The notes beneath the pieces are model-generated. The model made no database searches. It was given only the letters and a program-made list of their open reading frames with translations, and was not told the DNA's origin. This document shows positions 11,582 to 50,898 of a stretch of 64,000 bases of DNA, piece after piece. The DNA comes from Candidatus Thiothrix sulfatifontis (GTDB taxonomy: Bacteria; Pseudomonadota; Gammaproteobacteria; Thiotrichales; Thiotrichaceae), in assembly GCA_022828425.1 (NCBI GenBank), contig CP094685.1, positions 248,001-312,000 of the forward strand, in the 5' to 3' direction. Numbering within the stretch: position 1 is the stretch's first letter; each line of letters starts with the position of its first letter. Position numbers and translations under genes: made by a program.

Positions 11582-11653
11582 GCACTAATATTGGAGATTT
11601 TTCTGCTACACTTCAACACACCCATTACCACCAACTCAAGCGTCTTCACACTC

Positions 11654-12793: not shown

Positions 12794-12802
12794 AGCGTTT
12801 GC

Positions 12803-31468: not shown

Positions 31469-31477
31469 AAAAAAGAT

Positions 31478-31504: not shown

Positions 31505-31550
31505 TACCCCTGTAGCTAGAATAACTTCAGCCCGTTTGAGGAGAGAAAAC

Positions 31551-33296
31551 GTGAGTTTAACCCGTCGTGAATTTATGCAAATGTTGGCTGCTGCCAGCGT
31601 TGCCGGTTTCAGCCTGAATAACGCTTTTGCAGCAGATGCCAGCAAAGAAGGCGACAAAACCGCTGTCAAAGCCCCCAGTAACCCGTATGAACTGCCTGCT
31701 TTTGGCAATGTGTCCTTGATGCATTACACCGACTGCCACGCGCAATTATTACCGATTTACTTCCGCGAGCCGGACGTAAATCTGGGTATCGGTAGCATGA
31801 AAGGCGCAGTGCCGCACTTGGTCGGCGAACACTTCCTGAAAAAGTACGGCATCGGAGCCGGTACGATGGATGCGCACGCTTTCACCTACATTGATTACGT
31901 TGAAGCCGCGAAAAAATACGGCAAAGTCGGCGGGTTTGCCCACCTGAAAACCTTGGTTGACCAAGTGCGTGCGCAACGCCCCGGTTCATTGCTGCTGGAC
32001 GGCGGTGATACTTGGCAAGGTTCGTGGACAGCCCTGAAAACCAATGCGCAAGACATGGTGGATGCACAGCTTGCCTTGGGCGTAGACGTCATGACGCCAC
32101 ACTGGGAAATGACCTTCGGCGCGGATCGCGTTAAAGAAATCGTCGAGAAAGATTTCGCGGGCAAAATTGATTTCGTCGCGCAAAACGTCTTCAGCAACGA
32201 CTTTGATGAGCGCGTATTTGAACCGTTTGTCATCAAGGAAATCAACGGCGTACCCGTGGCGATTATTGGTCAAGCATTCCCGTATGTGCCGGTTGCCAAC
32301 CCCAAACACATGGTCGCAGACTGGAGCTTTGGTATCCGTGACGACGACATGCAGCAAGCGGTTGACGATGCGCGTAGCAAAGGCGCAAAAGTCGTCATTA
32401 TGCTGTCGCACAACGGCATGGACGTTGACCTGAAAATGGCCAGCAAAGTCACCGGCATTGACGCCATCATGGGCGGTCATACCCACGATGGCGTATTCCA
32501 GCCGGTTGTCGTAGAAAATGCAGGCGGTAAAACGCTGGTCACGAATGCGGGTTCCAACGGCAAGTTCCTCGGCGTACTCGATCTGGACGTGAAAGACGGA
32601 AAAGTCGCGGATTTCCGTTACAAATTGCTGCCAGTGTTCTCCAACTTGTTGGAAGCCAACAAGGACATGCAAACCCTGATCGACAAAATCCGTGAACCGT
32701 ACAAGAAAGAATTGGCAGAAGAACTCGCGGTGTGCGACGACGTATTGTACCGCCGGGGCAATTTCAACGGCACTTTCGACCAGTTGATCTGCGACGCGCT
32801 GATGGAAGGCTTGGATGCACCGATGGCGTTTTCACCTGGTTTCCGTTGGGGCACAAGCGTACTGCCGGGTCAGCCGATCACGTTTGAACACGTTGCCGAC
32901 CAAACCGCGATCACCTACGGCACGGTCACGCGCAACGAAATGACTGGCGAAACCGTTAAAAGCATCCTCGAAGACGTGGCTGACAACCTCTTCAATGCTG
33001 ACCCTTACTACCAGCAAGGCGGCGACATGGTACGCGTGGGTGGTTTGAAATTCACCTTTGACCCGACCGCTAAAATGGGCGAACGGGTATCCGATATGGT
33101 GTTGGATGGCAAACCGTTGGATGCGAAGAAAACCTACCCCGTGGCAGGTTGGGCCAGCGTGCAAGAAGAAGTGCCTAAGAACAAACAGATTTGGGAAGTG
33201 GTCGCCGATTACCTGCGTGACAAAAAGACCATTGGCAAGATCGAACTGAATACGCCGAAACTCAAAAACGTGGACGGCAACGAAGGCTTAGCCTAA
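31551..33296 (+). CDS. soxB: SoxB, thiosulfohydrolase of the Sox pathway
   Basis: The 581-residue precursor has a Tat-type signal (TRREFMQMLAAASVAGFSL) and a metallophosphoesterase-like fold with metal-ligand motifs TDCHAQLLP, GGDTWQGS, MLSHNGMD and GGHTHDG, then the 5'-nucleotidase-like C-terminal domain (FRWGTSVLPG). SoxB hydrolyses sulfate from SoxY-bound thiosulfonate using manganese. The start is a GTG at 31551 with GAGGAGA 7 nt upstream; earlier in-frame codons lack a ribosome site and would spoil the signal peptide. It is divergent from the ECF sigma gene and ends at a terminator. Confidence 0.96.
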   Translation: MSLTRREFMQMLAAASVAGFSLNNAFAADASKEGDKTAVKAPSNPYELPAFGNVSLMHYTDCHAQLLPIYFREPDVNLGIGSMKGAVPHLVGEHFLKKYGIGAGTMDAHAFTYIDYVEAAKKYGKVGGFAHLKTLVDQVRAQRPGSLLLDGGDTWQGSWTALKTNAQDMVDAQLALGVDVMTPHWEMTFGADRVKEIVEKDFAGKIDFVAQNVFSNDFDERVFEPFVIKEINGVPVAIIGQAFPYVPVANPKHMVADWSFGIRDDDMQQAVDDARSKGAKVVIMLSHNGMDVDLKMASKVTGIDAIMGGHTHDGVFQPVVVENAGGKTLVTNAGSNGKFLGVLDLDVKDGKVADFRYKLLPVFSNLLEANKDMQTLIDKIREPYKKELAEELAVCDDVLYRRGNFNGTFDQLICDALMEGLDAPMAFSPGFRWGTSVLPGQPITFEHVADQTAITYGTVTRNEMTGETVKSILEDVADNLFNADPYYQQGGDMVRVGGLKFTFDPTAKMGERVSDMVLDGKPLDAKKTYPVAGWASVQEEVPKNKQIWEVVADYLRDKKTIGKIELNTPKLKNVDGNEGLA

Positions 33297-33308: not shown

Positions 33309-33337
33309 CCCCTCGCCCCTTGCGGGTGAGGGGTTTT
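33309..33337 (+). terminator. Terminator after soxB
   Basis: CCCCTCGCCC and GGGTGAGGGG pair with one G-T wobble around a 5-nt loop, followed by TTTT. It lies 12 nt after the soxB stop and touches the end of the convergent lipoprotein gene. Confidence 0.85.
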
Positions 33338-33635
33338 ACTGACACTGCCCCGGCACAAACCCCTGCACCTGCGGATCAGCACACGCCTTGCAATCATTGA
33401 CGTAAGTTGCCTGAAGCGTCGAAGGACACGGCGCATTCACACAACGGGTCAGCGGGTCGCGCAACTGAGCGCACACTGGCGCAAACACTTCGTAACAAAT
33501 TTCCGGGCGCGGCTCACGGCATTGCTGCAACGCCGCCGTATTCACCACGCCCTCGGCAGCATTGGAACGGCTACAACCCGATAAGGCTGTCACGAACAAT
33601 ATGCCCGCTAACAGTAGCATTACCAAACTTTTCAT
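33336..33635 (-). CDS. Small Cys-rich lipoprotein, Kazal-like pattern
   Basis: The 99-residue protein has a lipoprotein signal (lipobox LSGC, Cys21) and a mature domain with eight Cys. The spacing in ICYEVFAPVCAQ and TYVNDCKACADP resembles Kazal-type protease inhibitor domains, with an insert of about 15 residues between the halves. No confident family is assigned. It is convergent with soxB. Confidence 0.65.
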   Translation of the reverse strand: MKSLVMLLLAGILFVTALSGCSRSNAAEGVVNTAALQQCREPRPEICYEVFAPVCAQLRDPLTRCVNAPCPSTLQATYVNDCKACADPQVQGFVPGQCQ

Positions 33636-33734
33636 AAAAACCTCGCCTTAGATTGTTTTGGGCAGTACGCAACCACTTGCGACACACGACGGTAATCCGT
33701 ACTCTTATCCCATTCTTTGTCTGGAGCCTGCCGC

Positions 33735-34394
33735 ATGAATCTGGAACACGCCCGCTTTAATATGATCGAACAGCAAATACGCCCGTGGGACGTACTGAAT
33801 CAGACCATTTTGGACACGTTTGGTTTCATTCAACGTGAATTATTTGTGCCTAAAGTTCACCAAGCTCTGGCGTTTGCGGATGTGGAAATTCCCCTAGGTC
33901 ATGGCGAACACATGATGTTCCCTCGCGTCGAAGCGCGTATGTTGCAGGCACTTAAAATTTCACCCACGGACACTTGCCTAGAAATTGGCACAGGCAGCGG
34001 GTTTGTTACCGCCTGTCTTGCGCATCTTAGCAAACACGTCGACAGTGTGGATATTCATGCTGAGTTTACCCGACAAGCGGAAGAACGTTTGTTTAACCTC
34101 AAACTGCGTAACCATACGTTACACACCGCTGATGCTTTGCGTGAAGTGTCAGGTACTGGGCAATACGATGTGATTGCGGTGACAGGCTCTATTGATCATT
34201 ACTTACCGCACTTTGAAACCCAACTGGCACCGGGTGGGCGGCTCTTCGTGGTGGTGGGGCACGGGGCGGCGATGCAGGCGATGCTCATCACCCGCGAAGC
34301 CGACGATGAATTTACCCGCACCAATCTGTTTGAAACCCACTTAAAAGCTTTGGTAGGCGCGAATAGCGATGCTGAGCGAACATTCATTTTTTAA
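33735..34394 (+). CDS. Protein-L-isoaspartate methyltransferase-family protein
   Basis: The 219-residue protein has the PCMT-type fold: ARFNMIEQQIRPWDVLN at the start, the SAM-binding motif CLEIGTGSGFVTACLAHL, and APGGRLFVVVG. This subgroup, found beside a rhodanese and tolC in many gammaproteobacteria, lacks clear proof of isoaspartate repair activity. The ATG at 33735 has GGAG about 9 nt upstream. It lies 2 nt before the rhodanese gene, in one operon with it and probably the TolC-family gene. Confidence 0.88.
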   Translation: MNLEHARFNMIEQQIRPWDVLNQTILDTFGFIQRELFVPKVHQALAFADVEIPLGHGEHMMFPRVEARMLQALKISPTDTCLEIGTGSGFVTACLAHLSKHVDSVDIHAEFTRQAEERLFNLKLRNHTLHTADALREVSGTGQYDVIAVTGSIDHYLPHFETQLAPGGRLFVVVGHGAAMQAMLITREADDEFTRTNLFETHLKALVGANSDAERTFIF

Positions 34395-34396
34395 TC

Positions 34397-34711
34397 ATGC
34401 GCCACTGGACACCTAGCGAACTGGCAGCGCACTTGAAGACACCTTCCCAACTGCATATATTGGATGTTAGGGAAGCATGGGAATACGATATTGCGCACTT
34501 TGAGCCATCAACCTTGATTCCCTTAGGGCAATTAGCGGATAAAATGGTACATCTGGATAAAACGCATGAGTGGTTAGTCGTATGCCATCACGGTGTCCGC
34601 AGCGTCCACGCGTGCTATTATTTGGAACGTAATGGCTTTCAAGTGATCAATCTAAGCGGCGGAATTGACCGTTGGGCGCAAGAGATTGACCACAATATGT
34701 CACTCTACTAA
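34397..34711 (+). CDS. Rhodanese-domain protein
   Basis: The 104-residue single-domain protein has the rhodanese features LDVREAWEYDIAH and the active-site loop CHHGVRS with catalytic Cys, then GGIDRWAQEID. It can bind sulfane sulfur as a persulfide; the donor is unknown. No signal peptide is present, so it is cytoplasmic. It follows the PCMT-like gene by 2 nt and precedes the TolC-family gene, a common gammaproteobacterial order. Confidence 0.93.
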   Translation: MRHWTPSELAAHLKTPSQLHILDVREAWEYDIAHFEPSTLIPLGQLADKMVHLDKTHEWLVVCHHGVRSVHACYYLERNGFQVINLSGGIDRWAQEIDHNMSLY

Positions 34712-36646: not shown

Positions 36647-36773
36647 TTATTTACCTCAAAATTCAGTGAAAGCGGGCGGGCTAAGGGCTTGCCACCTACC
36701 CACGGGTACGAAACTTAGGTATCATCGCTTGCCTATATTCTCCTGACCACCCCTTTTTTAAGGCGCATTGGAT

Positions 36774-38252
36774 ATGATGGATCACCCGCTCATCCTGCTT
36801 TTGCTTCTGCCTGCGTTAGGGGCATTTATCTTGGCATTCTTACCCAGTGGGCGACCGGATTTGATCCGCAATACAGCCATTGGCGTGGCAGCCATGACGC
36901 TGATGTATGCCGCGAGCCTTGCCCAACAGCTCGACTTTAGCAACCCCGCGATTCAATTAGCGACCAGCGTGGTCTGGAACCCGGAGCTGGGTACCTCGTT
37001 TTCCTTGGGTGTGGACGGGCTGGCATTTCCGATGGTGTTACTTACCACCGTGCTGGTACTGATGGCGTTATTGGCCTCGCACATGATCACGCACCATGTC
37101 AAAGGCTACTACTTGCTGATGCTCTTGCTGGAAGCCGCCACCATGGGCGTGTTTATGGCGCAAGATTGGGGCTTGTTCTACGTTTTCTGGGAGCTGGTGC
37201 TGATTCCGCTGTTTTTCCTAATTGACCGTTGGGGCGGCAAAAATCGGCAAACGGCGGCGCTGAATTTCGTGTTGTATACCATGGGTGGCTCGATTTTCAT
37301 GCTGTTGGCACTGCTGGTGCTGTTTGATGCGACCCCTACGCATTCGTTTACGTTTGCAGCAATGGCAGAAGGCGCCAAGCAATTGAGTACGGCCGAACAA
37401 GTGCTGATTTTCAGCGGCTTACTGATTGGTTTCGGGGTAAAAATGCCCCTGTTCCCGTTGCACGGTTGGCTGCCGTTAGCACACGTCGAAGCGCCCAGCC
37501 CCGTGAGTATTCTGCTTTCCGGTATCCTGCTAAAAATGGGTTCGTATGGCTTACTACGCGCCATTGATATTTTACCCGCCGCCGCGCAAGCGATGCAGGG
37601 CTTATTGTTTACCTTGGGTGTGATTGGCTTGTTGTACGGCGGCTTATTGGCATGGCGGCAAAGCGATATGAAAAAAATGATCGCGTATTCTTCTGTCAGT
37701 CACATGGGGGTGGTGCTGATTGGGATTTCCACCCTAAACGTGATCGGCATGACCGGCGCGGTTTACCAAATGGTGGCACACGGGCTGGTAGCAGGTGCAA
37801 CGTTTATGCTGATTGGCTTGCTGTATGAACGTACCCATACCCGTGACATCAACGATTACGGCTCATTGATTAGAATCACGCCGCGCTTTGCGTTTCTGAT
37901 TATTTTGGCTTTTGTCGGGGGCGTGGGCTTGCCGAGTACGGCGGGTTTCGTGGCGGAATTGCACGTTTTGATCGGCGGCTTTGAGGCGTGGGGGTGGCGC
38001 ATTGTATTGCTGTCGCTGGGTGTGTTGATCACCGCCACTTACAGCATTCGCACGGTCAAACAGCTTTACACTGGCCCGATGCGGCTGGACATGCAGCAAG
38101 TCGAAGACATGCGCCCGCTGGAAATGGTCGCCGCCGGAAGCTTGATTGCTGGTACCTTATTGCTGGGCTTTTACCCTGCCCCCTTGCTCGACATGCTCGA
38201 CGTGTCGGTGCAACACTTGGCAAGCCGCTTCGCAATACTGTTAGGACAATAA
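36774..38252 (+). CDS. NuoM-like proton-channel subunit of carbon-uptake operon
   Basis: The 492-residue protein is almost entirely membrane helices, of the NuoM/MrpD antiporter-like type. The key Glu (E140 in VFWELVLIP) and Lys (K223 in GFGVKMPLFPLHGW) of the proton path are present. It lies 3 nt before the DabA-like gene, so it belongs with it and not with a complex I operon, of which no other subunit is here. Start ATG at 36774 with AAGG 10 nt upstream; a TTG at 36768 and an ATG at 36777 are alternatives. Confidence 0.85.
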   Translation: MMDHPLILLLLLPALGAFILAFLPSGRPDLIRNTAIGVAAMTLMYAASLAQQLDFSNPAIQLATSVVWNPELGTSFSLGVDGLAFPMVLLTTVLVLMALLASHMITHHVKGYYLLMLLLEAATMGVFMAQDWGLFYVFWELVLIPLFFLIDRWGGKNRQTAALNFVLYTMGGSIFMLLALLVLFDATPTHSFTFAAMAEGAKQLSTAEQVLIFSGLLIGFGVKMPLFPLHGWLPLAHVEAPSPVSILLSGILLKMGSYGLLRAIDILPAAAQAMQGLLFTLGVIGLLYGGLLAWRQSDMKKMIAYSSVSHMGVVLIGISTLNVIGMTGAVYQMVAHGLVAGATFMLIGLLYERTHTRDINDYGSLIRITPRFAFLIILAFVGGVGLPSTAGFVAELHVLIGGFEAWGWRIVLLSLGVLITATYSIRTVKQLYTGPMRLDMQQVEDMRPLEMVAAGSLIAGTLLLGFYPAPLLDMLDVSVQHLASRFAILLGQ

Positions 38253-38255
38253 CAC

Positions 38256-41200
38256 ATGACTCATCACAGTCAGTCACACGCCGCACAGCGTGACTATTTG
38301 CGTGAAGCCATTGCCGGTCTGAATGCGGTGCTGCCGATTCAAGCGCCGCTGCAAGATTTTGTGCATTTTAATCCGCTGGAAAATTACGAATACCTGCCAT
38401 TCGCCGAGGCGCTACGCACCGCTCACGCCCACAGTGGCTCACTGGGCTATTTGCCCAATGGCGAATACCGCCGGTTTTTCCGCGAAGGGCGCATCAATCG
38501 CCACGATATTTTCAGCGTACTCGCCACCGAAGCCGATAAAGTGGCTGACCGCGACATTTACCTCACTGCGCTGGCGAATAATATTAAGCCGATTACCTTC
38601 CAGCAAATGCGCTGGCAAGTAGAAGAAAATCACGCACTGGAACGTTTTCAAGCCGATGTTGCCTTTGAGCAGCGCGAAAAATTACTCGAAGCCGCCGGAC
38701 AAGACGAAGCGACTGCCATCCGTGCCTTGTGGGAAACTTGCCTGCAAAAGCTGGAACTGCACTACGATTTGCCGCACCCCGAAGCCTTGCTCAACCTGCG
38801 CCTCAGCGACATTAACGGCATCTGGGATCAAATCAAGCAACAAGGGCAAATCGGCGCCAGCATCCCCGATGCAGAAAGTTTCATCCACGCTGAAAGCCGC
38901 CACCTGCTACACGATTTGCTGGATCAAGTCGGCGAAACCCTCACCTTGCGCGGCTTACTGAGCAAACTTACCGCTGTTGATGTGATGGATTCGCTGCTGC
39001 CGCTGCTGGATCGCCATCTGGCAAGCTGGCTCGACCAAGGCATTGCTGCGTTCCGCTCCCGTTCCCTGAGCGCAGCCGAAGGGCAAACTGGCTTCTACCG
39101 TTATTGGCGCGAAGCCACCCTCAACGATCCCACCCTCACCCTCGCAGGCATGGACGATTGGGACGATTACCTGCGTTCCCTGCATCACGACCCGCTGGAA
39201 ACCATCTGTCAAGAAATGATGCGCCTTGGCATCGACAAAGCCCATTGGGGCGGCTACTTGCGGGTATTGGCGCTGGAATTGCCGGGCTGGTCTGGCATGT
39301 TCAACTGGCGGGCGAAAAATCCCGGCTATTACGGCTTAACCACGCCGGTGAGCATGGAAGATTACCTCGCGGTGCGTTTGGTGCTGGAACACATCTTCTG
39401 CCGCCACGTTGCCCGCGACAACTGGCAAATCGACGCCAGCACCACCGGCATTCGCGGTTATTTCCACCAGCATCAGGATGAGTTTTTTGTTCGCTACCAC
39501 GCCTACAACACCACCTTGCCGGAATTCCTGCAACAACTCGCCCAGCAATTCTTAAGCAGTCAGGAAGACATTCAACCTGCTGACTGGCATCAACTCGCGC
39601 ACCAAATCCTAACTTGGAACCTTGCGCCGGAAACCGTGATCCCCGTCGGCACGGACATTTACCGCAAGGCTTGGCGCTTATTCCACCTTGCCCAACACTT
39701 GGGCATGGCAGCACCCCAAGTCGCGCAATTGGAAACCCCGCGCATCAAACGCCTGCTGGCGATTCTGGAAGAACTCGACGACCCCAACACCAGCGGCTAT
39801 TTATGGCTACGAGCGTATGAACACCATTATCAGGAAGAAATTTTCAGCGCCTTGCTGAACAAACACGCGGAAGAACCCCCGCCTAACCTCTCTTCCCCGC
39901 CCAATGCGCAACTGATCTTCTGCATGGATGACCGCGAAGAAAGCGTGCGCCGCCATCTGGAAGAACTCGCCCCCGACCTCGAAACCTTCGGCGCGGCGGG
40001 CGTATTCGGCTTGCCCAATAACTGGCGCGGGCTGGATGCACCCCGCCCGTTAAAATTGGCACAACCCGTGGTCACAGCGGTTCACGAACTCCGCGAAGTT
40101 CCCGCCACGAATGCCCAACGGCGCTTACCCGCCCACCAACGCCGCCAACGCTGGCTCCATTGGTTGCACAAGTTGAAAAATCACCGGATGCGCCACAGCG
40201 TCATCGGCACGACCTTGGCATTACCGTTACTCGCCCCGTTTGCTTTGCTGGAAATGGTGGGGCGCAGCCTCATGCCCGCCACCTACCAACGCTTCATCAG
40301 CAAGGTACAACGCCAAACCAGTGTGCCACTCAACACCCGCGTGGCTTACACCGCGCAAGACGCATTGGAATGCCCCAGCAAAGACCACAACCAGCAAGGC
40401 TTCAGCGCGGCAGAAAAAGTCACCAAAGTCGCCACTTTCCTCAAACTCACCGGCTTTACCAGCGGCTTTGCGTCCTTGGTAGTGCTCATGGCACACCGTT
40501 CGCGCCATTTGAACAACCCGCACATTCTCGGCTACGGTTGCGGCGCGTGCAGCGGGCGCTTCGGCGGCCCCAATGCCCGCGCCTTTACCAGCATGTGCAA
40601 TGAACCGGAAGTGCGGGCGCAATTGGTCGCGCAACACGGCATTCACATTCCTGACGGCTGCTGGTTCATCGCCAGTGAACACGATACCACCAGCGATGCC
40701 ATCGACTGGTTTGACACCGATTTGATTCCCGTCAGCCATCGAAGCGTGTTTGCGCACGTGCAGCAAGCCACCGAGCAAGCCGTGCGCTTATCCGCGCAGG
40801 AACGTTGCCGCAAATTTGCCTCCGCCAGCCCGCACTTGACCCCGCGTCAAGCCAAGCGGCACGTAGAAGGTCGCGCCGCTTCCCCCGATCAAGTACGGGC
40901 AGAATTAGGGCATCAAGGTTGTGCGGTCGCCTTCATTGGGCGGCGCGAATTGAGCAAAGGGATTTTCTGGGATCGGCGCTCCTTCCTGATTTCGTATGAC
41001 CCACACAATGACCCCGATGGCAAAATGTTAGAAGCGCAATTGCAAGGCAATGGCGTGGTCGGGGTCGGGATTCAGATGGACTACTACTTTTCGCGGATGC
41101 AAAACGGCTACTTCGGTTCCGGCAGCAAAGCCACCCACAACCTTACTGGCTTGTTTGGGGTCATGGAAGGCGGCGCGAGCGATTTACGCACCGGGCTGGC

Positions 41201-41516
41201 GCAACAGATGGTGGAATTGCACGAGCCGATGCGCTTACTCGCGATTGCCGAAGCCGAGATTGATACCTTGGTGGCGATTTACCAGCGCCATGATTACTTG
41301 CGGCGCTTGCTGGACAATGGCTGGGTATTGCTGGCAGCAAAACCGCCGGAGCGTAACGAAATCCATGTGTTCCAACCGGGCAAGGGCTTTGTGCAATGGC
41401 AAGGCGAAATTCATCAATTGCCAAGGGTACAGCATTCACAAGAATGGTACGCGGGGCAACGCGGGTATTTGCCGCCCGCTGCGGTGCGCAATACAGCGGA
41501 GGTGACACATGGCTAA
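38256..41516 (+). CDS. dabA: DabA/DUF2309 inorganic carbon transporter subunit
   Basis: The 1086-residue protein is a long DUF2309 member. The DabA zinc site, by family pattern, is C556 and D558 (FCMDDREES), H747 (MAHRSRHLNNPH) and C762 (GYGCGACSGRFGG); the His-x14-Cys spacing fits. DabA is a carbonic-anhydrase-like subunit that turns CO2 into bicarbonate vectorially, driven by the ion gradient through DabB. The gene has AGGA upstream and overlaps the NuoL-like gene by 8 nt. It is the centre of a five-gene operon. Confidence 0.92.
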   Translation: MTHHSQSHAAQRDYLREAIAGLNAVLPIQAPLQDFVHFNPLENYEYLPFAEALRTAHAHSGSLGYLPNGEYRRFFREGRINRHDIFSVLATEADKVADRDIYLTALANNIKPITFQQMRWQVEENHALERFQADVAFEQREKLLEAAGQDEATAIRALWETCLQKLELHYDLPHPEALLNLRLSDINGIWDQIKQQGQIGASIPDAESFIHAESRHLLHDLLDQVGETLTLRGLLSKLTAVDVMDSLLPLLDRHLASWLDQGIAAFRSRSLSAAEGQTGFYRYWREATLNDPTLTLAGMDDWDDYLRSLHHDPLETICQEMMRLGIDKAHWGGYLRVLALELPGWSGMFNWRAKNPGYYGLTTPVSMEDYLAVRLVLEHIFCRHVARDNWQIDASTTGIRGYFHQHQDEFFVRYHAYNTTLPEFLQQLAQQFLSSQEDIQPADWHQLAHQILTWNLAPETVIPVGTDIYRKAWRLFHLAQHLGMAAPQVAQLETPRIKRLLAILEELDDPNTSGYLWLRAYEHHYQEEIFSALLNKHAEEPPPNLSSPPNAQLIFCMDDREESVRRHLEELAPDLETFGAAGVFGLPNNWRGLDAPRPLKLAQPVVTAVHELREVPATNAQRRLPAHQRRQRWLHWLHKLKNHRMRHSVIGTTLALPLLAPFALLEMVGRSLMPATYQRFISKVQRQTSVPLNTRVAYTAQDALECPSKDHNQQGFSAAEKVTKVATFLKLTGFTSGFASLVVLMAHRSRHLNNPHILGYGCGACSGRFGGPNARAFTSMCNEPEVRAQLVAQHGIHIPDGCWFIASEHDTTSDAIDWFDTDLIPVSHRSVFAHVQQATEQAVRLSAQERCRKFASASPHLTPRQAKRHVEGRAASPDQVRAELGHQGCAVAFIGRRELSKGIFWDRRSFLISYDPHNDPDGKMLEAQLQGNGVVGVGIQMDYYFSRMQNGYFGSGSKATHNLTGLFGVMEGGASDLRTGLAQQMVELHEPMRLLAIAEAEIDTLVAIYQRHDYLRRLLDNGWVLLAAKPPERNEIHVFQPGKGFVQWQGEIHQLPRVQHSQEWYAGQRGYLPPAAVRNTAEVTHG

Positions 41517-43068
41517 TGGCTGGTTATTACTGATTCCCGGTTTGCCCTTATTAGCCGCTGTGTTGGTGGCGCTGAATCGGATGTTTCGTTGGAATCGTTG
41601 CGAAGCGGGCGAATGCCTCAGTTCGCAGTTAGTGCTGGGCGCAGGCTTGCTGAGTCTGGTCTTGGTGTTGTGGGCGGATGGGCAATATTTATTGCACGGT
41701 AGCCAGCACGTCATGGTATCGCCTTGGTTACACAGTGGTGTCTACAACGCCAGCATCAGTTTCATGCTGGATGGTTTGAGCTTGAGCATGTCGACCTTGG
41801 TGGCAGTGATTACGCTGTTGGTGACACGCTTTTCGGTAAATTATTTGCACCGAGACTGCGGGTTTCAGCGCTTTTTCATGGTGCTGGCACTGTTCACCGC
41901 TGCGATGCAATTGATTGCCTTGTCGGGCAGCGCGGTGTTGGCATTTGTCGGCTGGGAATTGGCGGGTGCGAGTTCTTACCTGTTGATTGCATATAATTGG
42001 CAAAGCAAAACCGCAACCACCAATGCGACGCGGGCATTTATCACCAATCGGCTGGGGGATGCGGGCTTTTTGCTGGGCATGTTCATGGCGTTTTCGTTGT
42101 TCCGCAGCACCGAATGGAACGTGATGTTGGTGCCGCAAGCCGAGCAGTCGAGCTTGCTGATTGGCGTCGCGGCGTTTGGCTTGATGGGCGCGGCCTTGGT
42201 GAAATCGGCGCAGTTCCCGTTTTCGGCGTGGATTACCCGTGCGCTGGAAGGGCCTACGCCATCCAGTACGGTGTTTTACGGGTCATTGATGGTTCATGCA
42301 GGCATTTTCTTATTGCTGCGGATTCACCCGCTATTGGAACAAGCCCCGGCATTGCAATATTTGCTGCTGGGGATAGGTGTTCTCACGGTGTTGTATGGCT
42401 GGCTGGGTGGCTTGGCACAAACCGATATTAAAACCTCGCTGTTGTTTTCCACCTTGGCACAAACCGGCTTGATGTTGATCGCGATTGCGCTGGGCTGGTA
42501 TACCTTGGCGCTGGTGCATCTGGTGTTGCACGCGGTGTGGCGGGCGTATCAATTTTTGCATTCGCCCTCGTTTGCGCTGCATACCCAATGGCAGGCGGCG
42601 CCTGCGGTTCCGGCATGGCTGGGGAAACGGCGCTGGTTGCACAATGCTGCCTTGCAACGTTTCTGGCTCGACCCGCTGGCGGATTGGTTGCTGGTAAAAC
42701 CCACCGTTGCGCTCTCACAAGAGGTGCAGATATTCGATGGGGAAATCCTCGATAAGCTGAGTGGCGCACCGGGGCATTACAGCAGCATTGCCACCCTTGC
42801 GGATATGCAAGCGCTGCAACAAGGGCGCTTGCGCGTGGAAAGCACCATTGGCACCGGCTCCGGTATCTTGGGCAAGCTAATGCAGTGGATCGCCGAACGC
42901 TTGGAATGGTTTGAACACCGCTTATTGCTACAACAAGGCGGCGGCAAAGCCAAAGCTGTTTTGGACACATTAGGGCGTTATTTGGACAGAATCGAACGCC
43001 TGCTTACCCAACCACGCTATCTGGTGTTGCTGATTTTGGCGACACTGGTTGTTATTTTTCAGGGGTAG
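41509..43068 (+). CDS. dabB: DabB/NuoL-like membrane subunit
   Basis: The 519-residue protein has about 13-14 membrane helices of the NuoL/MrpA type, with E150 (FVGWELAGASSYLLI) and K232 (GAALVKSAQFPFSAW, then LEGPTPSS). It is shorter than complex I NuoL, as in DabB, and its C-terminal part is less hydrophobic. DabB conducts the cation that powers DabA. GGAGG precedes the ATG, and the gene starts inside the end of dabA. Confidence 0.88.
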   Translation: MANGWLLLIPGLPLLAAVLVALNRMFRWNRCEAGECLSSQLVLGAGLLSLVLVLWADGQYLLHGSQHVMVSPWLHSGVYNASISFMLDGLSLSMSTLVAVITLLVTRFSVNYLHRDCGFQRFFMVLALFTAAMQLIALSGSAVLAFVGWELAGASSYLLIAYNWQSKTATTNATRAFITNRLGDAGFLLGMFMAFSLFRSTEWNVMLVPQAEQSSLLIGVAAFGLMGAALVKSAQFPFSAWITRALEGPTPSSTVFYGSLMVHAGIFLLLRIHPLLEQAPALQYLLLGIGVLTVLYGWLGGLAQTDIKTSLLFSTLAQTGLMLIAIALGWYTLALVHLVLHAVWRAYQFLHSPSFALHTQWQAAPAVPAWLGKRRWLHNAALQRFWLDPLADWLLVKPTVALSQEVQIFDGEILDKLSGAPGHYSSIATLADMQALQQGRLRVESTIGTGSGILGKLMQWIAERLEWFEHRLLLQQGGGKAKAVLDTLGRYLDRIERLLTQPRYLVLLILATLVVIFQG

Positions 43069-43073
43069 CACCG

Positions 43074-44609
43074 ATGATATTTTCGGAAATTCCAGCAACA
43101 TCACCGTTATTGACCGTGTTGCAATTGTTCCCGCTACTGACCGGGCTGGTGCTAATCAAAATACGCGGCAATGCGGCGGTGGCCTTGGCGGGCATTATGG
43201 CGCTGGCGCAAATGTTGCTGGCAATAAGCTTGTACATCAAGTTTGATGTGCATCAAGCAGCGGGGGTAATGCAGTTTGCCGAACGCTTCCAGATACTCGG
43301 CGCGTTTCATTACCACGCAGCGGTGGATGGTATCGGGGTCATGTTTGTGTTGCTGACCAGCTTGATCAGCTTATTGAGTGTGGCGTTTGTTCTGGTGCGG
43401 CGCTTGCACGAAAGCTCGATACTGGCGGTGATGATGATGATTCAGGCGGTCATCATCAGCCAGTTTGTGACGGTGGATTTGCTGTGGTTTACCTGCATGT
43501 CATTTCTTGAAGTGATTATGGTGGGGTATTTGACCAAACGCTGGCCGACATTCCACGACATTCAACCGACCTTGGCGCGTTACCTGCAATTCATGGTAGT
43601 GGGCTTATTGCTGCTGGTGTTTGGCACGCTGGTGTTGGGCTGGAATTACGCGGATGCGAATGCCGGACGCTGGAGTTTCAGCCTGTATGAGCTGGCAACC
43701 CTCGGCTTTGGGGCGCACGATATGGTGGGAACCTTGGTGTTTTTCGCCCTGTTTTATGCAATGGCGGTACGGATTCCGTTATTCCCGTTTCACGGCTGGT
43801 TGCCTGCGTTTATGTTGCACGGCAATGTGGCGGTCGCACCGATTTACTTGCTGGGCTTGAAAGTGGGGGTCTACGGGCTGTTGCGCTTTGTATTCCCGAT
43901 TGTGCCTCATGCGGTGTGGGAATGGCACATGGTGGCTACCGTATTCGCGGCAACTGGAGTGTTTTACGCCGCATTTTTGGCAATGCGCCAGCAAACCTTG
44001 CGTGAATTATTGGCGTTTGCGGTCATTAGCCATACCGGGATTTTGACAATTGGTTTATTTAGTTTGCATCGCATGGCGTTTGAAGGCGCTGTCTTGCTGG
44101 CGATGAATTTTGGATTGGCGATCACTGGCTTGCTGCTGATGACCGGCATGGTGTGGCAACGGACTCGCACCACGCGCTTGAGCAAGCTCGGCGGCATGAT
44201 GGATTACATCCCGATTGTGGGCTTGGCATTTCTGGTGGCAGGCTTGGCGATTGTGGGAATGCCGGGGACACCGGGGTTTGATGCGGTGCATTTCGTGCTG
44301 GAAGGTTCGATTAAGCGCTTCGGTGCATTGGTCACTGTTGCCGCAGCCTTGGGTAACTTGGTGGCGGCGGGCTTTTTGTTACGCGCTTTCCAACAGGCGT
44401 TTTTAGCCAATCCGGGGGTGGATACCAGCCGCTGGGATACGCAACCGACTTACCACGCGGAAACACTGATGGCGGGCATTGTGATTGTAGTGACCGTCAG
44501 CGCCGGGTTTTATTCCGCGCCGTGGATTGCCTTGATTGATCAGCCCATTCAAGGGTTGGCGGGGCTGTTTGCAGAATACACGGGCGACGTGCCGGGGGGA
44601 GAGCATTGA
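43074..44609 (+). CDS. Divergent NuoM-like subunit of carbon-uptake operon
   Basis: The 511-residue membrane protein resembles NuoM/MrpD (RIPLFPFHGWLPAFM, LLAFAVISHTGILTIG). At the position of the channel Lys it has R233 (MAVRIPLFPFHGW), and at the canonical Glu position it has a Met (LLWFTCMSFLEV), with a Glu three residues later (E146). This may weaken or change ion passage. It starts 5 nt after dabB with AGGGG upstream and leads directly into the next subunit gene. Confidence 0.85.
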   Translation: MIFSEIPATSPLLTVLQLFPLLTGLVLIKIRGNAAVALAGIMALAQMLLAISLYIKFDVHQAAGVMQFAERFQILGAFHYHAAVDGIGVMFVLLTSLISLLSVAFVLVRRLHESSILAVMMMIQAVIISQFVTVDLLWFTCMSFLEVIMVGYLTKRWPTFHDIQPTLARYLQFMVVGLLLLVFGTLVLGWNYADANAGRWSFSLYELATLGFGAHDMVGTLVFFALFYAMAVRIPLFPFHGWLPAFMLHGNVAVAPIYLLGLKVGVYGLLRFVFPIVPHAVWEWHMVATVFAATGVFYAAFLAMRQQTLRELLAFAVISHTGILTIGLFSLHRMAFEGAVLLAMNFGLAITGLLLMTGMVWQRTRTTRLSKLGGMMDYIPIVGLAFLVAGLAIVGMPGTPGFDAVHFVLEGSIKRFGALVTVAAALGNLVAAGFLLRAFQQAFLANPGVDTSRWDTQPTYHAETLMAGIVIVVTVSAGFYSAPWIALIDQPIQGLAGLFAEYTGDVPGGEH

Positions 44610-46102
44610 TGGATAGCTTAACAAGCATGGATTTTCCTTGGCTTAGCTTATTACTGCTGATGTTACCGTTGGGCGCGAGCTTGACCGCCTTCATGCCGGG
44701 GAAAGAAGCGCGGTTGGCAGCGTTGACCACGGCGGTACTGACATTGGGGGTGGCACTCATTATCGTGGCGGGGTTTGCCCCGCAGCAGGCGGGGTTCCAA
44801 TTTGTGGAAAAAACCCCTTGGATGCCGAGTTTGGGGATTCATTACCTGCTGGGAGTGGATGGGTTATCGGTCTTGTTCCTGCCGTTCACCGCGCTGTTGT
44901 TCATTGGGGTGATATTGGCGTCTTGGAACGCGATTCGTACCATGACGCGCCTGTATTTCGCGCTATTGCTGGTGTTGGAATGCACCATGATGGGCATTTT
45001 TACTTCGCTGGATACGATTTTGTTTTTCCTGTTCTGGGAAATGACCTTACTGCCGCTGTTTTTCCTGATCAGTTTGTGGGGCAGTGGTGCGAATCGGCGT
45101 TACGCGGGGGTGAAATACAGCTTGTTTATGTTGGCGGGTGGCTTGCCAATTCTGCTGGGGTTTGTGGTGCTGGCGATGAATAATTCCACGGGGATGAGTT
45201 TTGCCTACACCGATTTATTGCAAGGTAGCCGTGAATACGGGGTGCAGGTGACGGTGTTTTTCCTGTTGCTGGTGGGGTTTGGGGTGAAAATTCCGCTGTT
45301 CCCGCTGCATACCTGGTTGCCGGTGGTCGCGCAAGAAGGGCCTGCGACCACCGTGGCCTTGCTGACGGGTTTGAAAGTCGGGGCGTATGGGTTATTGCGC
45401 TTTGGCTTGCCGCTGGTGCCGGATGCCGCGTTGGAATTCCGCTGGATTCTGGTGGGGCTGGGAATGATCGGTGTGCTGTATGGCGCAGTGGCAGCGTTGA
45501 GCCAAACCAGTTTGCGGCGCATGTTGGCGTTTTCATCCTTAAGCCATGTCGGGCTGGTGGTGTTGGGGATTGCTGCGTTTAGCCCGCAAGGAATGCAAGG
45601 CGCAATCTTCCAGTTGCTGAACTTTACGCTGATTGCGGGTGGCTTGTTTTTGATTACCGGCTTTTTGCATCAACGTACCGGCTCGACGGAATTATTGAGT
45701 TTGGGCGGGGTAGCGAAATCCATGCCCTTGCTGGCATCGCTGTTCTTCTTCCTCGGTTTAGCGGGAATCGGAATGCCCGCCACCAGCGGCTTCCCGGCGG
45801 AATTTTTGCTGATTGTGAGTATTTTGGAAGTACACACCGGCGCAGGTTTGGTGGTGTTGTTTGTGGTGATTTTGGGGGCGGCGTATTTCCTGAACTTCTA
45901 CCGCAAAGCCTTTCTGGGTGAAGCGCGTCACGCCATTATCCGTGACGCGCCTGACTTGAAGCCGCGAGAACTGGGTGTCCTGCTGCTGATAGTTATACTG
46001 GTGCTGGTGTTCGGCCTCTACCCACAGGGGATGTTGGATATGACCGAAACCAGCAGCCAGTATTGGGTGAGCTTGATGCTGCCAACGGATACGTCACCGT
46101 AA
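44609..46102 (+). CDS. NuoM-like proton-channel subunit, second
   Basis: The 497-residue membrane protein is a canonical NuoM-type subunit with E144 (LFWEMTLLP) and K227 (GFGVKIPLFPLHTW), LGVDGLSVLFLP near the N-terminus and MLAFSSLSHVGLVVLG in the middle. The ATG at 44609 shares one base with the preceding stop (TGATG) and has GGGGGAG at about 7 nt; a TTG three bases earlier is less likely. It closes the operon of four antiporter-like subunits plus DabA. Confidence 0.88.
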   Translation: MDSLTSMDFPWLSLLLLMLPLGASLTAFMPGKEARLAALTTAVLTLGVALIIVAGFAPQQAGFQFVEKTPWMPSLGIHYLLGVDGLSVLFLPFTALLFIGVILASWNAIRTMTRLYFALLLVLECTMMGIFTSLDTILFFLFWEMTLLPLFFLISLWGSGANRRYAGVKYSLFMLAGGLPILLGFVVLAMNNSTGMSFAYTDLLQGSREYGVQVTVFFLLLVGFGVKIPLFPLHTWLPVVAQEGPATTVALLTGLKVGAYGLLRFGLPLVPDAALEFRWILVGLGMIGVLYGAVAALSQTSLRRMLAFSSLSHVGLVVLGIAAFSPQGMQGAIFQLLNFTLIAGGLFLITGFLHQRTGSTELLSLGGVAKSMPLLASLFFFLGLAGIGMPATSGFPAEFLLIVSILEVHTGAGLVVLFVVILGAAYFLNFYRKAFLGEARHAIIRDAPDLKPRELGVLLLIVILVLVFGLYPQGMLDMTETSSQYWVSLMLPTDTSP

Positions 46103-46909: not shown

Positions 46910-47569
46910 ATGGGGATAATTATTCCAACATTCGCACAATGGCTGACGGCATCTGGCGTGAATACGGCTAGGGGTATTTTCATGACCGGCACGGATACCG
47001 GCGTGGGTAAAACCTGGGTCGGCATCCAACTGATTACGTGCTTGCGGGCTTTAGGGCGTGAAGTGATGGTACGCAAACCCGTGGAATCGGGTTGGACTGA
47101 CGGCATTCAGCAAACGGATGCTTGGCAATTGGCACAGGCAGCGGGGCAAGCCTTTGACTCACGCATTTGCCCCTACCACTTTAGCGCCGCGCTTGCCCCG
47201 CCACGCGCCGCACAACTTGCCGGGGAAAGCGTGTCACTGCAACAACTGGTAGCCGCTTGCCCCACGCATTGGGAACCCCACCAGTTTTTGCATGTGGAAG
47301 GCGCAGGCGGCTTTTATTCACCGATTGCCGACGATGGCCTCAATGCCGATCTTGCCCAAAGGCTGGGCTTACCCGTGGTTATCGTTGCCGAAGACCGTTT
47401 GGGTTGCATCAACCATGTGTTACTCACGGCCGCAGCGGTGCAACAACGCGGCCTCACCTTGGCAGGCGTTATTCTCAATGCCCGCACGCCCCGTGTGAAC
47501 GGCATGGATAATGCTCAAGATATGTGCCAGTATTTGGACGTACCAATCGTCGCTTTCCCGTGTGCTTAA
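46910..47569 (+). CDS. bioD: Dethiobiotin synthase
   Basis: The 219-residue protein has the P-loop GTDTGVGKT (residues 26-34), KPVESGWTDG, HVEGAGGFYSPI and GVILNAR of BioD. It closes the ureido ring of dethiobiotin with ATP and CO2, the step before biotin synthase. The ATG at 46910 with AAGGA 6 nt upstream gives about 22 extra residues before the usual start region; a later ATG just before the P-loop is an alternative. No other bio gene is in the window. Confidence 0.93.
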   Translation: MGIIIPTFAQWLTASGVNTARGIFMTGTDTGVGKTWVGIQLITCLRALGREVMVRKPVESGWTDGIQQTDAWQLAQAAGQAFDSRICPYHFSAALAPPRAAQLAGESVSLQQLVAACPTHWEPHQFLHVEGAGGFYSPIADDGLNADLAQRLGLPVVIVAEDRLGCINHVLLTAAAVQQRGLTLAGVILNARTPRVNGMDNAQDMCQYLDVPIVAFPCA

Positions 47570-48696
47570 GCCATTTCCGGCAAATCATAATGCGTAGCGC
47601 TGTCTTCTGCGTGTTCCGCACCGAAATTGATTTGCCACTCCAAATCATTGCGGGAACCGGCGTACTCCAAGGCCACGGTTTTGCTGATGTGGCTGCCGGT
47701 GTAAAGCTGGTACAAGGCTTGGTCAAAGGTTTGCATTCCATCCACCGACCCTTTGGCAATAATCTCTTTCAACTCGCCAAATTGTCCGGTACGAATCAGC
47801 TCAGCGACATACGGGGTATTCACCAACACCTCTGCCGCCAGATGCAAGCCATCTTTTTCATCAGGAATCAGCCGTTGCGCCACAATCCCGCGCAAATTCA
47901 AGGATAAATCCATCAATACCCGGCCTTTATTTTCACTGGGAAACAAATACAGCATTCGCTCCAGCGCCTGAATCACGTTAGTCGCGTGCAAGGTCGACAA
48001 CACCAAATGCCCGGTATCCGCAAAACCCAACACCGCATCCATGGTTTCGGTATCGCGCACCTCCCCCACCATGATCATATCCGGGGCTTCCCGCATGGCT
48101 TCACGCATCGCATTGGCGTAACTCAAGGTGTCAAAACCGACCTCACGCTGCCCAATAATGGATTTGCCGTGGCGGAAAGTGTATTCAATCGGGTCTTCAA
48201 TCGTCAAAATATGCCCAAAATGGTGCTCATTGCGGTGCTGAATCAAGGATGCCATCGACGTCGACTTCCCCGACCCCGTAGACCCCACGAACAGCAGCAT
48301 CCCCTCTTTTTGCATCACCAGTTTTTTCAGCACTTCCGGCAATTTCAACTCATCCGGCGAGCGAATGTCGGAACGAATATGGCGAATCACCATCGACACT
48401 TCCCCGCGCTGAAAATAAAAATTCATGCGGAAACGCCCAATGCCTTTCAGCGAAAATCCCTTATTTAATTCACGATCGGCAAAGAAAGCTTCAATTTCGG
48501 TTGCCGTCAGGATCTCTTCGGCTAATTGGCGAATATTGCCCGGCTTCATCGACTCCCGGCTAATGCGCTTGAGCTGCCCCCGCACTTTAATCGTGGCGTG
48601 CGCCCCCGTGGTCAAATACAAATCCGACGCGCTTTGTTTCACCATCACATTCAGTAATGGTGTGATGCGCATCTCAGCTTCACTTAAAATGGTCAT
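47566..48696 (-). CDS. PilU-like retraction ATPase, third paralogue
   Basis: The 376-residue protein has Walker A GSTGSGKST, an Asp box TIEDPIEYTFRH, Walker B MIMVGEVRD and the His box HLVLSTLHATNV of the PilT/PilU group. It resembles PilU more than PilT because the C-terminal AIRNLIRE-type motif is replaced (NTPYVAELIRTGQ). It overlaps the pilU gene before it by 4 nt (ATGA). Its tail overlaps bioD by 4 nt. Retraction ATPases depolymerise type IV pili; three in a row is unusual. Confidence 0.9.
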   Translation of the reverse strand: MTILSEAEMRITPLLNVMVKQSASDLYLTTGAHATIKVRGQLKRISRESMKPGNIRQLAEEILTATEIEAFFADRELNKGFSLKGIGRFRMNFYFQRGEVSMVIRHIRSDIRSPDELKLPEVLKKLVMQKEGMLLFVGSTGSGKSTSMASLIQHRNEHHFGHILTIEDPIEYTFRHGKSIIGQREVGFDTLSYANAMREAMREAPDMIMVGEVRDTETMDAVLGFADTGHLVLSTLHATNVIQALERMLYLFPSENKGRVLMDLSLNLRGIVAQRLIPDEKDGLHLAAEVLVNTPYVAELIRTGQFGELKEIIAKGSVDGMQTFDQALYQLYTGSHISKTVALEYAGSRNDLEWQINFGAEHAEDSATHYDLPEMA

Positions 48697-49850
48697 AGGG
48701 TGGTCTTCTCCAGCGGCTCAATCGCCAATTCATCCAAGCCCTTAAAGAAGTCGTTATCTTGCGCAAACCGGCTTTCCAACTTGAGGCGTAAGCGCAAGTC
48801 ATTCTGCGAATCGGCATGACGCAACGCTTCATGCACGGTGATTTGCCGCGCTTCAATCAAATCAAATAGCGCTTGGTCGAAGGTGCGCATCCCGTGTTCG
48901 CGCGATTTCGAGGTCAGAATCTTCATGCCCGGCACATCGCCTTTCAGGATTAAATCCGCCATTAATGGCGTATTAATCACCACTTCCACCGCTGGCAAAC
49001 GCCCTTCCCCTTTGGCTTTACGCACCAAGCGCTGTGATACCACCGCCTTCAGGTTGAGGGATAAATCCATCAATAACTGGTTGCGGCGTTCTTCGGGGAA
49101 AAAGTTGATAATACGGTCGATCGCTTGGTTGGAACTGTTGGCGTGCAAGGTCGACAAGCACAAATGCCCGGTTTCCGCGTAGGCAATCGCGTAATCCATC
49201 GCCTCACGATCCCGAATTTCGCCTAACAAAATCACATCAGGAGCTTGGCGCAAGGTATTTTTCATCGCAATTTCATAACTGCTGGTATCGACCCCCACTT
49301 CGCGCTGCGTAATCAAGCACCCCTTGTGCTGATGCACAAACTCAATCGGGTCTTCAATCGTGACGATATGCCCTTTGGAATTGGTATTGCGAAAATCAAC
49401 CATCGACGCCAATGTGGTCGATTTACCCGAACCCGTCGCCCCCACCATAATCACCAAACCGCGTTTGGTCATGGCAATCTCGCGCAATACCGGCGGCAAC
49501 CCCAACTCCTTCAACCCCGGAATATGGTTAGGAATATGGCGTAACACCATCCCCGCACAACCGCGTTGCGTGAACGCATTCACCCGGAATCGCGCCTTGC
49601 CCGGCAGACTAATGGAAAAGTTGCATTCCATGTCCTCCTCGAACTGTTTGAGCTGGCGGTCATTCATAATCGCCCGCACCAACATCCGCGCCGTTTGCTC
49701 ATTCAATGGCTGATTGGTTAGCGGCACCATTTCGCTGGCAATTTTGGCAGAAGGTGTGGCCTCCGCCGTAACGTACAAGTCGGAAGCCTTTTTTTCCAAC
49801 ATGGTAGCCAATAATTTATGCACATAGCTAATGGCAGCATCGCGATCCAT
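48693..49850 (-). CDS. pilU: PilU-type twitching ATPase
   Basis: The 385-residue protein has Walker A GATGSGKST, TIEDPIEFVHQHK, VILLGEIRD and HLCLSTLHANS, and ends in the charged tail typical of PilU (LRLRLKLESRFAQDNDFF). PilU assists PilT in forceful pilus retraction. It follows pilT by 13 nt and overlaps the third ATPase gene by 4 nt, so the three are one operon. Confidence 0.92.
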   Translation of the reverse strand: MDRDAAISYVHKLLATMLEKKASDLYVTAEATPSAKIASEMVPLTNQPLNEQTARMLVRAIMNDRQLKQFEEDMECNFSISLPGKARFRVNAFTQRGCAGMVLRHIPNHIPGLKELGLPPVLREIAMTKRGLVIMVGATGSGKSTTLASMVDFRNTNSKGHIVTIEDPIEFVHQHKGCLITQREVGVDTSSYEIAMKNTLRQAPDVILLGEIRDREAMDYAIAYAETGHLCLSTLHANSSNQAIDRIINFFPEERRNQLLMDLSLNLKAVVSQRLVRKAKGEGRLPAVEVVINTPLMADLILKGDVPGMKILTSKSREHGMRTFDQALFDLIEARQITVHEALRHADSQNDLRLRLKLESRFAQDNDFFKGLDELAIEPLEKTTL

Positions 49851-49863
49851 AGTTCAGCCCTCG

Positions 49864-50898
49864 TTAAATAGAATCCGGGTTATCGGCTTTGCGCCGCGCC
49901 GCTTCACGATCCACCAAACCTTTCATCACCAAATTTTTCAATGATTGATCAAGGGTTTGCATCCCGTCATTTTGCCCGGTTTGCATCGCGGAACGCATTT
50001 GCGCAATCTTATTTTCGCGGATTAAATTGCGCACCGCCCGTGTACCAATCAGAATTTCATGCGCCGCCACCCGCCCGCCGCCTTTTTTCTTCAGCAGGGT
50101 TTGCGAAATCACCGCCTGCAAGGATTCGGAAAGCATGGAACGCACCATCTCCTTTTCGGCAGCGGGGAACACGTCCACAATACGGTCAATGGTTTTGGGT
50201 GCGGATGTCGTATGCAACGTGCCGAACACCAAATGCCCGGTTTCCGCTGCGGTCAGTGCCAAGCGAATGGTTTCCAAGTCACGCATTTCCCCGACCAGAA
50301 TGGTATCCGGGTCTTCACGCAACGCGGAACGGAGGGCGGCTTCAAAGCCTTTGGTATCGCGGTGCACTTCACGTTGGTTGACCAAACTTTTTTTGCTTTC
50401 GTGCACGAATTCGATTGGGTCTTCAATGGTCAAAATATGCCCGTAATCGGTATCATTTTTGTAATCGACCATTGCCGCAAGCGTGGTGGATTTGCCCGAA
50501 CCAGTCGGCCCTGTTACCAACACCAAGCCGCGTGGGTTTTCCGAAATTTTCCGAAAAATACCCGGCGCACCCAACTGGTCGAGCGTTAATACTTTGCTGG
50601 GGATGGTACGGAACACCGCACCTGCGCCACGGTTTTGGTTAAAGGCATTCACACGAAACCGCGCCACACCGGGAATTTCAAACGAGAAATCGCATTCCCA
50701 ATGTTCTTCGTAGTTTTTACGTTGGTGATCATTCATGATGTCGTACACCAGCGCGTGTACTTGTTTATGGTCGAGTACTGGCAAGTTGATCTTGCGCATT
50801 TCGCCATCGACACGGATCATGGGGGGCATCCCGCCCGACAAGTGCAAGTCGGATGCATTGTTTTTGACGCTGAACGCCAATAGTTGGGTAATGTCCAT
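49864..50898 (-). CDS. pilT: PilT twitching motility ATPase
   Basis: The 344-residue protein has the usual PilT length and motifs: SDLHLSGGMPPMIRVDG, Walker A GPTGSGKST, TIEDPIEFVHESK, ILVGEMRD, HLVFGTLHTTSA and the signature AVRNLIRENKIAQM that is needed for retraction. It powers depolymerisation of type IV pili and gliding or twitching motility. It is first in pilT-pilU-pilU-like and divergent from yggS, a conserved neighbourhood. Confidence 0.95.
   Translation of the reverse strand: MDITQLLAFSVKNNASDLHLSGGMPPMIRVDGEMRKINLPVLDHKQVHALVYDIMNDHQRKNYEEHWECDFSFEIPGVARFRVNAFNQNRGAGAVFRTIPSKVLTLDQLGAPGIFRKISENPRGLVLVTGPTGSGKSTTLAAMVDYKNDTDYGHILTIEDPIEFVHESKKSLVNQREVHRDTKGFEAALRSALREDPDTILVGEMRDLETIRLALTAAETGHLVFGTLHTTSAPKTIDRIVDVFPAAEKEMVRSMLSESLQAVISQTLLKKKGGGRVAAHEILIGTRAVRNLIRENKIAQMRSAMQTGQNDGMQTLDQSLKNLVMKGLVDREAARRKADNPDSI

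Follow-up and report, generated by a model that had tools for sequence, protein, structure and literature searches.

A DabA operon with one NuoL-like and three NuoM-like genes in Candidatus Thiothrix sulfatifontis: a candidate multi-subunit vectorial carbonic anhydrase

In the sulfur-oxidising bacterium Candidatus Thiothrix sulfatifontis, the gene for the carbon-uptake protein DabA lies among four antiporter-like genes, which raises the question of whether the five products could work as one larger complex with several ion channels per CO2 hydrated. The locus is found in the window, i.e. the whole stretch of 64,000 nt that was analysed (contig CP094685.1, positions 248,001 to 312,000). What is described of DAB2 and of MpsAB is that two proteins suffice in each (PMC13144422, PMC6689103), and this favours a simpler alternative: DabA and DabB would act alone as in DAB2, and the other three proteins, here M1 to M3, would make up an antiporter or leak of their own, cotranscribed and handling the protons from CO2 hydration. 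The genes are as follows (window coordinates):

36774..38252, + strand: M1, NuoM-like subunit (PF00361; in-frame ATG at 36774, with a TTG start possible at 36768, ORF 36768-38252)
38256..41516, + strand: DabA, beta-carbonic-anhydrase-like subunit, derived Thiotrichaceae paralog "A" (PF10070, tree)
41509..43068, + strand: DabB, NuoL-like TM1-11 (PF00361 and PF00662, model, hydropathy)
43074..44609, + strand: M2, degenerate NuoM-like subunit (PF00361, residue alignment)
44606..46102, + strand: M3, NuoM-like subunit (PF00361, residue alignment)

Successive junctions are a 3 nt gap, an 8 nt overlap, a 5 nt gap and a 4 nt overlap. DabA matches PF10070 (E = 3.1e-203), PF00361 is found in M1, DabB, M2 and M3, and PF00662, the NuoL N-terminus, in DabB only. 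ORFs, spacing and Pfam families thus agree with the original prediction of one NuoL-like and three NuoM-like subunits around DabA. The NCBIfam NuoM model TIGR01972 (cut-off 263.8 bits) is passed by M1 (485.8 bits) and M3 (458.5 bits), with M2 just under it at 258.1 bits; DabB is best fitted by NuoL models, the match being limited to the first ~355 residues, with scores below the cut-offs. Promoter and terminator scans of the operon returned nothing beyond shuffled sequence. No match to complex I families was seen in the 8 flanking ORFs scanned (three smaller ORFs, 33336-34711, lie outside the scan), in line with the earlier claim that no other complex I gene is present at the locus. The same 8 ORFs gave no match to Mrp families either, and none of the NCBIfam matches listed for the five proteins is to an Mrp model above cut-off, both of which speak against a separate antiporter.

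Elsewhere in the host genome, which has nine PF00361 genes including the four of this operon, the tree joins a trio located at 1.74 Mb to NuoL, NuoM and NuoN of E. coli; a pair at 2.65 Mb is assigned to MrpA/D solely by gene size and order. The operon differs from respiratory complex I, represented here by that trio, in that its 8 flanking ORFs hold no quinone or NADH module.

Related systems differ from the window operon in different ways. The cyanobacterial NDH-1MS with CupA is driven by ferredoxin oxidation and its hydrating subunit is unrelated to DabA. As presented in PMC13144422, it couples CO2 hydration to an antiporter-like membrane arm, as is proposed for our operon. DAB1 and the Staphylococcus aureus MpsAB are likewise inorganic-carbon systems combining PF10070 with PF00361, but the descriptions consulted give them one antiporter-like subunit only, with a third, small membrane protein in DAB1 (hneap_0907-0909; PMC13144422). 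In 2M-type complex I (Chadwick 2018, as cited in PMC6606698) an extra NuoM copy is thought to raise the number of protons per turnover; that complex, a homolog of complex I, differs in being a redox enzyme with a lengthened NuoL (PMC6606698). The closest precedent is a 2017 account of "Clade C" ybcC-nuoL operons, where DabA (YbcC) is upstream of a NuoL homolog, with NuoM (COG1008) and often SulP (COG0659) nearby, and where more membrane subunits were proposed to mean more ions moved (PMC5700660). Within the open-licence PMC literature searched, it was the only description of NuoM beside DabA that we found. Since that paper describes both the layout and the several-ions idea, neither is new here, and the statement that described DAB systems consist of DabA plus one DabB does not take account of the third protein of DAB1 or of the NuoM beside DabA and NuoL in PMC5700660. 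What is added below to the passages of that paper concerning these operons is the division into three NuoM-like groups, the degeneracy of M2, the truncation of DabB, the residue contrasts and the split operons.

The five-gene layout is widespread and the window is not unique. Among 174 mapped loci, which include the window and count some contigs twice without deduplication, 91 have the order M1-DabA-DabB-M2-M3, 11 have a second DabA-DabB pair and 36 the order DabB-DabA; the other 36 show incomplete sets, unusual orders, complex I or none of these. Median junction gaps in 92 operons are 0, -8, 9 and -4 nt, taking longest-ORF starts. Scanning with the M2 alignment gave at least 559 confirmed stretches, the best 80 of which come from Gamma-, Beta- and Alphaproteobacteria, Magnetococcales and one "Aquificaceae" MAG, suspected of being mis-binned. 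Of 398 genomes sampled evenly across the phylum, 69 have DabA, at 73 places, 65 of which were taken as neighbourhoods (left out were the window's own, six split-DabA fragments in G060, G106 and G126, and one below the cut-off in G243): NuoM-like partners are present at 30, DabA and DabB form a pair at 32 (the locus L210, discussed below, included), and at three DabA is alone by the models used. Matches were also found in 123 plasmid records, and in seven of the eight examined (Nitrobacter, Haloarcula, Halobaculum, Mycolicibacterium, Nocardia, Thiodictyon and Staphylococcus) DabB precedes DabA with no annotated NuoM; the eighth, from Sphingobium, has DabA and no DabB in a stretch cut at the start of the record. 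Of 106 distinct operons, 26 have a member of one ~592 aa neighbour family no more than 5 kb away, and the one member checked is a SulP.

The split operons are informative. In one genome (G019) M1-DabB-M2-M3 are contiguous and the sole DabA is on another contig; in two others (G193 and G197, the latter with M1 cut by the contig end) the order is M1-M3-DabB-M2 with DabA elsewhere, and a further contig (L074) carries M1-DabB-M2-M3 with no DabA on that contig, to which the search was confined. The association of M1, DabB, M2 and M3 outlasts rearrangement. Conserved membership and order, together with the linkage of four genes where dabA is on another contig, support the view of the five genes as a single functional unit, and the tie of M1 to M3 with dabB even in that situation argues against their being a separate antiporter.

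A quick tree places M1, M2, M3 and the DabB of multi-subunit operons each in a single clade (SH-aLRT 99-100). M1, M2 and M3, which are separate old clades, all fall on the NuoM side, where a long stem leads to M2, next to M3, and the window DabB groups with stand-alone DabBs, beside NuoL. The possibility that M1 to M3 are stray copies of the host's own NuoM was ruled out, each being in its own clade. The NuoM clade that holds them leaves outside a single MrpD-like row; by this, and by the lack of an Mrp match above cut-off among those listed for the five proteins or of any in the 8 flanking ORFs, the operon is set apart from Mrp antiporters. The same placement bears on a version of the complex coupled to Na+ in place of H+. 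Mrp relatives carry out Na+/H+ or K+/H+ exchange (PMC7419157) and MpsAB was proposed to be a Na+/bicarbonate cotransporter (PMC6689103), but DAB2 is described as fully active without Na+ (PMC13144422), and with M1 to M3 on the NuoM side of the tree we regard Na+ coupling as improbable.

Which subunits could conduct was judged at the positions of E. coli NuoM E144 (TM5 Glu), K234 (TM7 Lys), K265 (TM8 Lys) and E407 (TM12 Glu). All four residues are found in 95 of 96 M1 proteins, and in M3 they are kept in 107, 107, 107 and 106 of 107, respectively, the window's M1 and M3 both being complete; both exceptions come from one locus (L144), where M1 is without all four and M3 without the TM12 Glu. M2 retains K265 alone of the four (116/116), has Arg at K234 (116/116) and no acid at either 144 or 407 (116/116), the window M2 having F144, R233 and V405 in place of E144, K234 and E407. 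M2 is therefore probably a non-conducting cap or scaffold. The resemblance of M1 and M3 to ordinary NuoM is what one would also see in a separate antiporter.

DabB and DabA were compared with DAB2 (DabA2-DabB2) of Halothiobacillus neapolitanus (PDB 9rd0), which shares the DabA family, the Cys-Asp-Arg-His-Cys site and a NuoL-like DabB, but is without the three further antiporter-like subunits of the window; gene order is another difference, DabA preceding DabB in the window. The sites concerned, and one junction considered further on, are:

39921..39935, + strand: DabA C556-x-D558-x-R560, matching DabA2 C351/D353/R355
40494..40541, + strand: DabA H747 and C762, matching DabA2 H524/C539
40251..40253, + strand: DabA E666, inside the helix predicted for the finger (649-672); close to, and not surely equal to, DabA2 E444
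41956..41958, + strand: DabB E150, aligned to NuoL E144 (TM5 Glu) and to Ile151 in DAB2
38215..38246, unstranded: junction where relative L048 carries a further dabA'-dabB' pair (~4.8 kb), from alignment

The DabB2 of DAB2 has 15 TM helices, with TM12-13 holding the DabA finger. The AF2 model of the window DabB has 11 TM helices, shorter helices and one last hydrophobic helix, with TM12-14 missing, and hydropathy agrees in giving 11 TM helices and one terminal hydrophobic helix. The C-terminal stretch after TM11 weakly resembles that of the NuoL family, and from residue 380 onward the model has low confidence, at pLDDT 42-79. In a fold search the model lies on NuoL over ~350-375 columns, and DAB2 is absent from the 50 matches listed. 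Given the missing TM12-14, DabB is probably a half-channel and coupling piece only; without the region that DAB2 uses, it is also ill suited to the alternative in which DabA and DabB act alone. NuoL E144, R175, D178, K229, K305 and H338 are each conserved in 117-118 of 118 multi-subunit DabBs; H334 is kept in 106 of 118. At two further positions these DabBs are substituted: NuoL H254 (DabB2 H260) is Tyr in 117 of 118 and NuoL K342 (DabB2 K347) is Arg in all 118, the window DabB having both changes. As alanine mutants at H260 and K347 are reported to be impaired in DAB2 (PMC13144422), conduction through DabB may be poor or absent. Four equal channels are ruled out by the residue losses in M2 and the truncation of DabB after TM11: of the several ion channels first proposed, residues support M1 and M3 only, and a count of four is too high.

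Set against stand-alone DabBs (n = 37, with L210 counted as stand-alone throughout), the multi-subunit DabBs differ consistently. The TM5 Glu is present in 117 of 118 multi-subunit vs. 1 of 37 stand-alone proteins (16 of 17 vs. 1 of 12 once the sequences are clustered to below 60% identity); the last 165 aa hold 0-1 hydrophobic segments in 119 of 119 multi-subunit DabBs and 3-4 in 36 of 37 stand-alone ones; the Tyr and Arg at H254 and K342 are each found in a single stand-alone protein. L210 is the sole stand-alone exception in every contrast. Its locus holds DabA, DabB and its own third gene for a NuoM-like, degraded PF00361 protein, and in the tree a long branch attaches it to the multi-subunit clade, which leaves it only weakly independent. 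The contrast is somewhat weakened by the lower diversity of the multi-subunit DabBs (mean core identity 0.58 vs. 0.47), and many independent events were ruled out for the TM5 Glu: all contrasts fall on one split of the DabB tree and count as about one event. In DAB2, restoring Glu at Ile151 is reported to halve growth yield (PMC13144422), and by analogy a stand-alone DabB would work better without the interface Glu. Retention of this Glu where neighbours exist fits sideways coupling, to which the residue contrasts point suggestively and not as statistical proof.

DabA has its zinc site in order. The C/D/H/C site noted earlier as intact aligns with DabA2 at C556, D558, H747 and C762, R560 included, and these residues are kept in 98-99 of 99 multi-subunit DabAs. 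A Foldseek search with the DabA model returned a weak beta-carbonic-anhydrase match only (CsoSCA, E = 0.013), DAB2 being absent from the 50 matches listed. The finger is another matter: E444 is reported as essential in DAB2 (PMC13144422). phmmer pairs E666 with it, and a multiple alignment sets E666 nine columns off. Because whole-length alignment assigned the finger Glu of stand-alone proteins to a different column, a plain tally of E444 losses was rejected and the finger was scored as any acid in an 18-column core. On this score an acid is present in 36 of 37 stand-alone DabAs, L210 again being the exception, and in 1 of 83 multi-subunit DabAs outside the genus; within the genus it is found in 16 of 16 copies of paralog A and in none of 10 of A'. 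The window DabA is thus an exception to the missing finger acid of its class. The acid itself would suit DabA and DabB acting alone, but its absence from most relatives does not, and on the whole we consider that M1 to M3 are unlikely to be a separate antiporter.

Ten of 15 same-genus relatives have M1-A'-B'-A-B-M2-M3 and five have one DabA-DabB pair, as in the window. Against L048, the window aligns to 38215 and resumes at 38246 (94% identity onward), skipping A'B', which we read as a probable loss of A'B' in the window's line. In the DabA tree, a single clade, on a long stem with support of 100, unites the window's A, the second DabA of L072 and the orphan DabAs from G019 and from G022; its members carry a Glu in the finger, replaced by Asp in one copy from the genus. 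A' belongs to another clade, and the fork joining A and A' to other Thiotrichaceae DabAs lacks resolution. With its long stem and finger Glu, the paralog carried by the window is the least typical of the class.

Taken together, these observations make it somewhat probable, in our judgement, that the operon encodes a PMF-driven multi-subunit vectorial carbonic anhydrase whose complex-I-like arm has two complete channels. In complex I, the TM5 Glu of one subunit faces a TM12 residue of the next. By analogy, the E150 side of DabB would face M1 or M3, which have the TM12 Glu, and M2, with neither TM5 nor TM12 Glu, would be the end cap. DabA would hydrate CO2 to bicarbonate at its zinc site, and DabB would dock it to the membrane and, through its TM5 Glu, connect laterally with M1 and M3 in the manner of complex I. 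Proton flow inward through about two channels, in place of the single DabB/finger path of DAB2, would then drive CO2 hydration and stop the reverse. Gene content and linkage, the residue patterns, the phylogeny and the truncation of DabB are observed directly; we infer complex formation, subunit order, inward direction, H+ as the ion and the two-channel stoichiometry.

The opposite direction was weighed as well: an exergonic DabA reaction, e.g. bicarbonate dehydration, could pump ions out, as the complete pump-like residues of M1 and M3 would allow and in the spirit of the 2017 proposal of exergonic chemistry driving ion export (PMC5700660). The DAB2 study concludes from structure, spectroscopy and complementation that CO2 hydration is PMF-driven, though purified DAB2 showed none (PMC13144422), and our host has three RuBisCO large-subunit matches and two BMC shell proteins above cut-off, a setting where bicarbonate accumulation is wanted; it also has one beta-CA match and this one DabA gene. 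A reverse complex is therefore very improbable.

For the favoured PMF-driven complex, the parts differ so consistently from those of the two-protein machine that the ion gradient is probably used differently. More tentatively, and with somewhat less than even confidence, these operons may form a widespread DAB class of their own, whose proton route has moved from DabB and the DabA finger into the side arm, so that at least two protons would pass per CO2 and bicarbonate could rise far above what DAB2 achieves. The limiting gradient is 10^(n × PMF/59 mV), which at 150 mV gives ~340-fold for n = 1 and 117,000-fold for n = 2 by arithmetic. If this holds, CO2 hydration would be a non-redox chemistry coupled to a multi-channel complex-I-type arm, to our knowledge the first, and the operon would offer a small test system for the debated matter of how TM5 Glu/TM7 Lys pairs pass coupling between neighbouring antiporter-like subunits. 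It would also be relevant to the engineering of CO2-concentrating mechanisms, for which, as far as we know, only two-gene DABs have been used so far.

Three genes make up the DAB of locus L210, and this gene set is a third layout of DAB.

L210 (genome G352), 110-5719: DabA, DabB and a degraded PF00361 protein.

DabB is short here (440 aa) with its TM5 Glu retained, and the degraded PF00361 protein measures 433 aa. Larger sets were also mapped, and in some of them the extra dabA'-dabB' pair is itself interrupted.

L040-L043, L045, L046, L048, L049, L051 and L054: seven-gene clusters, two DabA and two DabB genes flanked by the NuoM-like subunits M1 and M2.
L045, 10033-14189, and L054, 5719-10555: a NACHT-HEAT protein plus a short protein, encoded between dabA' and dabB'.
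L041, 8352-9125: shorter, fused ORF in the dabA'-dabB' interval.

The NACHT-HEAT assignment was made by Pfam in L045, and the short protein we take, by its appearance, to be DUF559-like. The L041 ORF looks like a remnant.

Loss of key residues, unlinked DabA, a cluster with no DabA match nearby and neighbours with weak carbonic-anhydrase matches were observed at the following loci.

L144, approximately 3605-12900: Thiobacillus MAG operon, M1 and M3 with key residues lost.
L169, 8455-12428, and L185, 2900-6906: unlinked DabA adjoining a CheW-receiver (CheV-like) gene (two genomes, one family).
L288 (genome G001), 7125-12891: a further gene cluster encoding NuoN-, NuoL- and M-like proteins.
L092, 13036-14160: protein beside a five-gene operon, weak CsoSCA_cat match (E 9.8e-7).
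L120, 12657-13772: protein beside a five-gene operon, weak LCIB_C_CA match (E 3e-4, under cut-off).

All four key residues are gone from M1 of the Thiobacillus operon and its M3 has lost the TM12 Glu; the DabB TM5 Glu is retained. The CheW-receiver domains rest on Pfam in L169 of the two loci, and no DabA match occurs within the 20 kb stretch around the L288 cluster. Of 106 loci, 8 have a member of the L092 neighbour's family and 6 a member of the L120 neighbour's.

Other genes were noted in the window.

47566-50898, minus strand: three T2SSE-family ATPases side by side, presumably PilT/PilU-like.
31476-33296: protein with a 5'-nucleotidase C-terminal domain (Pfam).

The latter we assume to be SoxB-like, in keeping with a sulfur-oxidising host.
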